Below, piece after piece: positions 59,481 through 62,097 of a stretch of DNA of 64,000 nucleotides. The position numbers and the translations under genes are program-made. Under the pieces are notes generated by a model, which had not been told where the DNA came from, searched no databases, and worked only from the letters and a program-made list of their open reading frames with translations. Numbering within the stretch: the stretch's first letter is position 1; every line of letters begins with the position of its first letter. The DNA is from Thermoanaerobacterales bacterium (GTDB taxonomy: Bacteria; Bacillota; Thermosediminibacteria; Thermosediminibacterales; Tepidanaerobacteraceae), in the NCBI GenBank assembly GCA_012840135.1, contig DUMA01000022.1, positions 248,001 through 312,000 of the forward strand, in the 5' to 3' direction.

Positions 59481-60254
59481 TTAAATATATTTCCTCATAT
59501 GCTTTAATGCAGCCTTTTCAAGTCTTGATACCTGAGCCTGGGATATGCCTATCTCTTGCGCAACTTCCATCTGAGTCTTTCCTTCAAAAAACCGCAGATT
59601 TAATATGCGCTTTTCTCTTTCATTCAGCTTCTGCATGGCTTCTTTAATGGAAATGCCCTGGAGCCAGCTTTCATCCTGATTTTTTTCATCGCTGATCTGG
59701 TCCATTACGAAAATCGGGTCACCACCATCGTGATATATAGGTTCAAAGAGAGAAATAGGCTCCTGAATGGCATCTAAGGCAAAAACTATTTCTTCCCTGG
59801 GCACATTCATTTCCGATGCTATTTCATTAATAGACGGCTCTCTTGAGTTTTTATTGACAAGTACATCTCTTACCTGCAGAGCTTTATACGCCACATCCCT
59901 TAAGGAACGGCTCACCCTTATAGGGTTGTTGTCCCGCAGATATCTTCTTATTTCTCCTATAATCATGGGGACGGCATAGGTTGAAAACTTGACATTCTGA
60001 TCCAAATCAAAATTATCGATAGCCTTCATAAGGCCTATACAACCCACTTGAAAAAGGTCATCCACGTATTCCCCGCGGTTATTGAACCTCTGTATTACAC
60101 TCAAAAAAAGGCGCAGATTACCATTTATCAGCTTTTCCCTGGCTTCCTTGTCTCCCTTTTTCATAAGCAAAAAGAGTTCCTTCATTTTGCTGTTGGAAAG
60201 CACTGGAAGCTTTGAAGTATTCACTCCGCATATTTCTACTTTGTTTAAAATCAT
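59481..60254 (-). CDS. sigG: RNA polymerase sporulation sigma factor SigG
   Basis: 257 aa. MILNKVEICGVNTSKLPVL at the N-terminus is typical of SigG; region 2 (FLSVIQRFNNRGEYVDDLFQVGCIGLMKAIDNFD), region 3 and the region 4 helix-turn-helix (MEVAQEIGISQAQVSRLEKAALKHMRKY) follow. SigG directs late forespore genes such as SASPs. ATG at 60254 abuts an SD (GGGGGAGG) that can pair with an upstream complementary arm; a SigF-like promoter lies between. Confidence 0.96.
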   Translation of the reverse strand: MILNKVEICGVNTSKLPVLSNSKMKELFLLMKKGDKEAREKLINGNLRLFLSVIQRFNNRGEYVDDLFQVGCIGLMKAIDNFDLDQNVKFSTYAVPMIIGEIRRYLRDNNPIRVSRSLRDVAYKALQVRDVLVNKNSREPSINEIASEMNVPREEIVFALDAIQEPISLFEPIYHDGGDPIFVMDQISDEKNQDESWLQGISIKEAMQKLNEREKRILNLRFFEGKTQMEVAQEIGISQAQVSRLEKAALKHMRKYI

Positions 60255-60311
60255 AAACCTCCCCCGTCTTCCTGAAACTATCATTTAAAGTCTTGCCAGA
60301 GGGGGAGGTTT
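60255..60311 (-). promoter_or_regulatory. Anti-Shine-Dalgarno hairpin controlling sigG translation
   Basis: On the minus-strand transcript AAACCTCCCCC (60311-60301) is perfectly complementary to GGGGGAGGTTT (60265-60255), which contains the sigG ribosome-binding site next to the ATG. The loop is 35 nt. Transcripts reading through from sigE would include both arms and be translated poorly. Occlusion of the sigG ribosome-binding site in read-through RNA has been described for B. subtilis. Confidence 0.75.
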
Positions 60312-60317
60312 TTATAC
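60288..60317 (-). promoter_or_regulatory. SigF-type promoter of sigG
   Basis: GTATA (60317-60313), 15 bp, GGCAAGACTT (60297-60288) on the minus strand matches the SigF pattern (GYATA; GGnnAnAnT). Transcription would start near 60282, after the anti-SD arm, which sits in the promoter spacer. Confidence 0.6.
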
Positions 60318-60331
60318 ATGTTTCTATTTCA

Positions 60332-61057
60332 TTACATCATTCTCACCATTTCTTTTTTTAGCCTTTTAATTATTCTTTTTTCCAGGCGGGAGATATAAGA
60401 TTGTGAGATTCCGAGCAGGTCCGCCACTTCCTTCTGAGTCTTTTCCACCCCATCATTCAATCCGAACCTAAGCTTTATAATACATCTTTCCCGCTTTGAA
60501 AGCCGCTTAATTGCGGCATCCAGCAGTTCTTTGTCCACTTCTTCTTCTATACACTTATATATCATGTCATTGTCCGTGCCGAGAATATCGGACAGCAAAA
60601 GTTCATTGCCATCCCAGTCAATGTTGAGAGGCTCATCGAAGGATACTTCAACTCTCGTCTTATTGTTCCTTCTCAGGTACATCAAGATTTCGTTTTCGAT
60701 GCACTTCGAGGCATAGGTGGCCAGTTTAATTTTTTTGTTGGGATCAAAAGTATTTATGGCTTTTATAAGGCCGATGGTTCCGATGGAAACCAGATCCTCT
60801 ATTCCAACCCCTGTATTTTCGAATTTTTTTGCTATATATACCACAAGGCGCAGATTTCTCTCAATCAGTATGCTCTTGACACCCATATCACCCATGACAA
60901 GCTTGTTGAGCAGACATATCTCTTCTTCGCCGCTGAGCGGTGGCGGCAGAGCCTCCGTTCCACCTATGTAATAAATGAGAGACCTTTTATGTATCCCCAG
61001 TCGTTTGAGCAGCCTGATGACTATCAGTTTTAAATTTATTTTTTTAACTTTAAACAT
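60332..61057 (-). CDS. sigE: RNA polymerase sporulation sigma factor SigE (pro-SigE)
   Basis: 241 aa. Basic amphipathic pro-sequence ([17 protein letters not shown]) then [15 protein letters not shown], the SpoIIGA cleavage region; region 2 ([17 protein letters not shown]), region 4 HTH ([21 protein letters not shown]). Active SigE governs the mother cell. Lies 22 nt after spoIIGA. Its stop is 15 nt before the SigF -35 of sigG. Confidence 0.97.
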
Positions 61058-61079: not shown

Positions 61080-61982
61080 TTATTCGTTTAATAAATCGGG
61101 ATTTAGCAAAGCCCTGTACGTTCCATCGGGAGATAAAATCCTCTGGTGAATGCCGAGAATCACATCTTTTATTTCCAGGATTTTATTGTTAAAACTCAGA
61201 GTAATCATATCGGGCTTGAAACCAATCATCAGACCCTTGCTTTTCCCGATACTCTCAAAAGGTATCAATCTGAATCTTGTAGCCCATTTAGACCCGGAAA
61301 TTAGTTCTCCCATGTGCTTGAGATTTTCTTCAGTCTCCTTCATTAAAACTGCCTGTAAATCAGTGCTGAAGAAGTCTTTTACCGCATCAAACTCCACAAT
61401 GACCACGGGACAGTCCGATATGGGGTCGTGTAAGTCATTGCCGGTGTCAATCAATGCTTTCACTTCGAGGCTCTTTTCATCAAATGTGACGGTCATGGGC
61501 ACCAGCAGTACATCTTTTGATATAATACGGTAAACAAGAGGCCATAAATACTTAAAAAATAAAAACAGTGTGAGAGAGGAAACAAGTAATATCCACCACG
61601 GTACTGAAATATTATTTATTAAAAGCATACTATTCATAAAAGTGTCTTTTAAATTATAAAAGTAAAAAAGCGCAAAGGCACCTCCGCCCACCATGAAGGA
61701 AATCAGGTAGAAAAAACTCAATATTTTTATGAAGTCCTTAAAACATCGTGGTTGAAAGCTGGCCACTATCATCGCTGCAGACAGGGCTATTTTACAGAAA
61801 AGACTTTGAAAAACCGTAAAATTCGGCAAAGCAATGGAAAGCAGAAATAAGCATCCCCCGGCCGCTCCCAATAAGATTCTGAAGTAGTTTTTTTTAAGAT
61901 TTAATACAATTGCGACGAATAATAAAATCAAAAAGTTCATTATCAGGTTTATTAAAAACACTACATCCAGATATACGACCAT
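61080..61982 (-). CDS. spoIIGA: Sigma-E processing peptidase SpoIIGA
   Basis: 300 aa. Five to six N-terminal membrane helices and a C-terminal aspartic-protease-like domain with the catalytic Asp in [12 protein letters not shown] (DTGN). Cleaves pro-SigE at the septum, activated by SpoIIR. ATG at 61982 has GGAGG; the frame extends 4 codons to TTG. A clear Spo0A box was not found upstream. Confidence 0.95.
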
Positions 61983-62097
61983 ATTTTCCTCCAAAAAAAT
62001 TACCAGTCTATAAAAAAACTATATTCATTTTTCTTGTCCTTTATGATATATTCTAGCACCCTTCTCTTTAAAAAAATGTCAGATCATGATTTCAGGT

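Follow-up and report, generated by a model that had tools for sequence, protein, structure and literature searches.

The promoter of sigG, the gene for the forespore sigma factor, carries between its -35 and -10 elements a perfect 11-bp complement of the sigG Shine-Dalgarno (SD) region. The case comes from the window, a 64,000-nucleotide stretch of DNA from a Thermoanaerobacterales bacterium. Its best explanation, in which we place high confidence, is a silencer of sigG read-through, that is, a hairpin specific to read-through RNA that would occlude the ribosome-binding site (RBS). This reading draws on the sequence, its predicted folding, the conservation of the promoter, the coevolution of the two arms and their dependence on upstream context.

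The proposed mechanism is as follows. RNA begun upstream of spoIIGA, the first gene of the operon, and running through sigE would carry the entire sigG promoter; its spacer strand AAAACCUCCCCCUC would pair with GGGGGAGGUUU and hide the sigG RBS, and it is this operon's read-through RNA that would be silenced. RNA from the forespore promoter would begin downstream of the arm, form no hairpin and be translated. One 29-bp element would then answer to two constraints, the -35 and -10 as DNA recognized by SigF/SigG, and the otherwise free spacer as an RNA clamp on the RBS. For this organism we infer the use of SigF/SigG, the start site and the translational silencing itself.

The locus and its predicted folding

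The relevant features, in the order of transcription, are:

61080–61994, minus strand: spoIIGA, SigE-processing peptidase (TIGR02854, 231.7 bits against a cut-off of 209.6, NCBIfam equivalog)
60332–61057, minus strand: sigE (NF006158 and TIGR02835, both above the NCBIfam equivalog cut-off)
60313–60317, minus strand: -35 element GTATA of the sigG promoter (PWM score 18.1; GNATA near-invariant among relatives)
60298–60312, minus strand: 15-bp promoter spacer AAAACCTCCCCCTCT, carrying the anti-RBS arm (duplex with its own RBS window, -23.3 kcal/mol)
60301–60311, minus strand: perfect 11-bp arm AAACCTCCCCC inside the spacer, complement of GGGGGAGGTTT
60289–60297, minus strand: -10 element GGCAAGACT (consensus GGNNATANT in 239 regions; G here, T usual)
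60281, minus strand: transcription start as predicted from the B. subtilis case, 8 nt past the -10
60255–60265, minus strand: sigG SD region GGGGGAGGTTT, the 3' arm of the predicted read-through hairpin
59481–60254, minus strand: sigG, forespore sigma factor, start MILNKVEICGV (TIGR02850, 510.8 bits against a cut-off of 457, NCBIfam equivalog)

The gene order is of the B. subtilis type, with spoIIGA-sigE and then sigG directly downstream, all on one strand. Only 14 nt separate the sigE stop codon from the sigG -35, and the sigG ATG occupies 60254–60252. A terminator scan found no terminator-like site in 60255–60332, giving the sigE-sigG gap a terminator score of 0, and Rfam covariance models gave no match up to E = 1 over 60100–60500. 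The spacing from the SD core GGAGG to the ATG (60252–60259) is only 3 nt, which is below the usual; it is 5 nt in two relatives (L087, L094).

A matrix built from relatives was run on 251 non-redundant regions upstream of sigG and located a promoter of the form GNATA-N14/15-GGNNATANT in 239 of them; the window's copy scored 18.1, compared with 6.7 for the 99th percentile in shuffled regions. The -35/-10 pair whose conservation the original prediction had put at issue is thus almost universal upstream of sigG. As a sequence match, it is a promoter of the SigF/SigG type lying between sigE and sigG; analogy with B. subtilis and C. difficile (PMC5942855, PMC7438776) points to SigF/SigG dependence in the window as well. 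In the window's order, the -10 (60289–60297 here; the same site in L085–L102) has G or A where T stands in 91% of sigG promoters, reading GGCAAGACT or GGCAAAACT and not GGCAATACT (..ATA..). This departure from the consensus at a single position may weaken the promoter.

Among the relatives, locus L270 is one that we take to belong to the B. subtilis group, its SigG being 99% identical to the B. subtilis protein. Its spacer TTTTTCCCACCC pairs with GGGAGGGAAAAA (layout GCATA TTTTTCCCACCCGA GGAGATACT / GGGAGGGAAAAA), so that the arm occupies the spacer in B. subtilis as well. The window's start at 60281 was predicted by fitting to L270 the positions given by Mearls 2018, in which the leader hairpin spans +10 to +15 and the core RBS +19 to +23.

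The 11-bp complement claimed by the original prediction is exact, AAACCTCCCCC (60311–60301) matching the sigG SD GGGGGAGGTTT (60265–60255) on the minus strand, and so is the position that it gave for the arm, between the GTATA -35 and the GGCAAGACT -10. The 3.18-Mb genome holds three copies of AAACCTCCCCC, two of which are these arms. The match is not a matter of chance: of 20,000 shuffles of the window's spacer, 16 gave a complement of 11 bp, and that length was attained in 0.04% of pairs when spacers were set against the RBS windows of other clusters. Complements of at least 9 bp were found in 6.7% of own spacer-RBS pairs, as opposed to 0.3% of pairs across clusters.

Predicted folding separates the two transcripts. 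RNA starting just past the -35 folds at -25.6 kcal/mol (z -3.6; none of 200 shuffles as good), whereas RNA begun close to the predicted start reaches -2.5 kcal/mol (z 0.1), no better than shuffles. Opening the SD is predicted to cost 18.9 kcal/mol in the read-through RNA and 2.3 kcal/mol in the promoter RNA. Thus, the long RBS-hiding arms that mark the B. subtilis-type hairpin are present here as a perfect 11-bp duplex of -23.3 kcal/mol, and by the predicted folds, which depend on where transcription is taken to start, the hairpin would be impossible in RNA from the sigG promoter.

Spacer-RBS coevolution and upstream context

For 238 loci, every spacer was paired with every RBS window, and the own duplexes were compared with permuted ones. 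Own spacer-RBS duplexes averaged -9.73 kcal/mol, compared with -7.85 kcal/mol (sd 0.14) after permutation. The difference holds with one representative for each of 108 clusters (z -6.5, own versus foreign RBS), these clusters being defined by 80% identity over the first 84 coding bases, which groups genomes by sequence identity and not on a tree. When a 15-nt segment was moved along the loci having no terminator, starting 60 nt before the -35 and ending at the -10, the signal peaked on the spacer (-2.1 kcal/mol, z -7.2); some segments outside the promoter reached z -3.5 to -4.0, and base composition contributes a background to the own-versus-foreign signal. Swapping spacers between distant species generally weakened the pairing.

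Individual loci illustrate how the arms have changed together. In L091 the exact match AAAACTTCCCCCTGT/ACAGGGGGAAGTTTT extends beyond the SD, as do those in L028 and L236; the Carboxydocella locus L028 pairs its spacer GGCTCCATTCC with GGGGTGGAGCC. Most relatives have the SD at the centre of the 3' arm, and in Thermoanaerobacter L055 (ATCCTGCC/GGCAGGAT) this arm lies over the bases between the SD and the start codon. Because a MAFFT alignment of the window's order placed gaps inconsistently beside the SD, per-pair covariation counts were set aside and the own-versus-foreign duplex tests used instead. By these tests, the arms coevolve across Bacillota with the peak on the -35/-10 spacer; the original prediction had staked itself on covariation of the arms among relatives, and it withstood this check.

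If the lock silences read-through, the arm is expected where read-through is possible. We located sigE upstream of sigG by tblastn and divided the loci by context. Among cluster representatives with sigE upstream and no terminator-like hairpin, own duplexes averaged -10.4 kcal/mol against a null of -8.3 kcal/mol (z -7.4); the own-versus-foreign z was -1.3 for representatives with sigE upstream and a terminator, and -1.4 where sigE is not adjacent. The SD opening cost tells the same story. Its rise over composition-matched shuffled spacers was 3.6 kcal/mol in the no-terminator class, 0.75 kcal/mol in the terminator class and 0.78 kcal/mol where sigE is not adjacent, and the cost in read-through RNA exceeded that in promoter RNA by 4 kcal/mol or more in 29 of 56, 7 of 34 and 6 of 30 clusters, respectively. 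Comparing the 29 of 56 with the pooled 13 of 64 gives a Fisher p of 0.0005, or 0.00026 after the window's own close relatives are removed. The specificity for read-through RNA that had been proposed for the window is thus supported at the level of clusters, the arm being found mainly where sigE read-through is possible.

The strength of this contrast varies with how it is drawn. In terms of duplex energy, the terminator contrast fades as terminator calls become stricter (p about 0.01 at scores 6–9, 0.27 at 10); in terms of opening cost, it is steadier over the terminator thresholds (p 0.0009 to 0.026). In genomes with a 14-bp spacer taken alone, which are mostly Bacilli and offer few contrast cases, the context effect is not significant (p = 0.37). 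The arm is not obligatory, since about half of the no-terminator clusters have no strong arm. The Carboxydocella locus is an exception: its spacer arm is among the strongest (-23.3 kcal/mol), yet no sigE was found within 2.4 kb upstream.

A variant layout came to light when a few loci (L044, L049, L050, L053, L065, L030) were inspected. In Desulfosporosinus, Acididesulfobacillus and a Dichloromethanomonas relative there is no spacer arm; the -10, together with the bases before the start site, would form the anti-RBS arm. In L065, for example, 12 pairs, including a single G-U, join GAATACTCTCCA to TGGAGGGTATTC. The predicted SD opening cost in Desulfosporosinus-like loci is 6–12 kcal/mol in read-through RNA, compared with 1–4 kcal/mol in promoter RNA. 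In most of these loci the -35 overlaps the sigE stop codon.

Putting these data together, we lean towards the view that the sigG promoter of Bacillota is under dual selection as DNA and as RNA. A stretch of it lying before the start site, in most cases the spacer and in Desulfosporosinus-like bacteria the -10, probably coevolves with the RBS as a lock specific to read-through RNA, and would be gained or lost according to the presence of a terminator between sigE and sigG.

Alternative explanations and significance

The hairpin could in principle act on transcription, terminating or attenuating sigE read-through, instead of hiding the RBS. The strong stem is indeed followed by UUU AUG AUUUU, and arms are commoner where a canonical terminator is missing. 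However, an intrinsic terminator consists of a short-loop, GC-rich stem with a U-tract, and the window has a loop of about 35 nt, no proper U-tract and no site called by the scan between the two genes (60255–60332). The placement of the 3' arm on the SD in most relatives, and on the SD-to-start bases in Thermoanaerobacter, fits a block of initiation, and we regard action on transcription as unlikely. Less likely still is that the complementarity is a by-product of pyrimidine-rich spacers matching purine-rich SDs. Foreign spacer-RBS pairs already average about -7.8 kcal/mol, and some neighbouring segments give own-versus-foreign z values of -3 to -4, as composition would have it; but own pairs outdo foreign ones and also shuffled ones of matched composition, the spacer is where the signal is greatest, upstream context alters it, and the exact matches of L091, L028 and L236 run past the SD.

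We give the least credence to the idea that sigG is dampened at all times by a leader hairpin within the promoter's own transcript, as in B. subtilis (Mearls 2018), the spacer arm being irrelevant. Hairpins of 5 bp were reported in all 15 Bacilli examined (PMC5942855). In the window, however, the SD stays accessible in the promoter RNA, whose fold is -2.5 kcal/mol and in which opening the SD costs 2.3 kcal/mol; a leader RBS hairpin of the Mearls kind, at about -6 kcal/mol, is not found, and the GGGGGAGG core takes no part in the best fold. Elsewhere, five Paenibacillus-type loci (L068, L069, L079, L160, L166) have almost the same leader, GTTTCTCCTTGGGAGGTAATCA, and its CTCC is able to base-pair with the SD within the promoter transcript, as in the Mearls 2018 leader hairpin; the spacer arms of the Paenibacillus-type loci inspected are weak.

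Occlusion specific to read-through RNA therefore remains the preferred reading. The mechanism first put forward for the window, with read-through RNA silenced and promoter RNA free, is supported by the gap in opening cost, by coevolution and by context. Its embedding of the arm in the spacer is real, although not peculiar to this genome, since the B. subtilis-group loci L270–L273 have it too.

A forespore sigma factor made too early or in the wrong cell would spoil sporulation. Our comparative data suggest that spore formers have two interchangeable guards against sigG expression from sigE read-through, one being a terminator and the other an RNA lock that the promoter itself encodes. With these data, what had been predicted in a single model species becomes a rule that can be tested throughout the phylum. 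They also indicate that the promoter spacer, usually viewed as free sequence, can hold coevolving RNA information. This comparative pattern is the part that deserves specialist attention.

Comparison with known systems

The sigG read-through hairpin itself is already known from B. subtilis, where it goes back to Masuda 1988 and Sun 1991 for sigG (spoIIIG); Figure 1D of Mearls 2018 (PMC5942855) marks it as belonging to read-through RNA only, and that paper holds that RNA made from the sigG promoter is unable to form it. Early sigG RNA in B. subtilis is untranslated read-through from sigE, according to the summary in a C. acetobutylicum paper (PMC2530871). In C. difficile, sigG is transcribed from two promoters, one of the SigA type ahead of spoIIGA and one for the forespore ahead of sigG itself (PMC7438776). 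In the literature searched, which took in few subscription journals, we found no description of phylum-wide coevolution or of a terminator trade-off. The new part thus appears to be the comparative evidence, namely these two patterns and the Desulfosporosinus-like variant with its arm in the -10. One candidate parallel (PMC12802891) was rejected, its subject being convergent promoters.

The window resembles B. subtilis in gene order, in the forespore promoter between sigE and sigG, and in an RBS-occluding hairpin confined to read-through RNA; the arm fills the promoter spacer in L270, and all of L270–L273 have a spacer arm. The two differ in spacer length (14 bp there, 15 bp here) and in the sequences of the arms, which have coevolved, and in B. 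subtilis sigG starts with GTG and its leader holds a small hairpin, neither of which is found here. That leader hairpin (Mearls 2018) likewise occludes the sigG SD and lowers translation, but it is part of the promoter transcript itself and so affects every sigG RNA, and it is absent from the window. A more distant likeness is offered by gene e and I-TevI of phage T4 (PMC3014915, PMC2988022), where a hairpin conceals the RBS of the long early transcripts, and a late promoter within the region of the hairpin's 5' strand gives rise to hairpin-free, translated RNA. The genes are unrelated and the promoters are phage late promoters, so that the likeness is one of convergent logic only.
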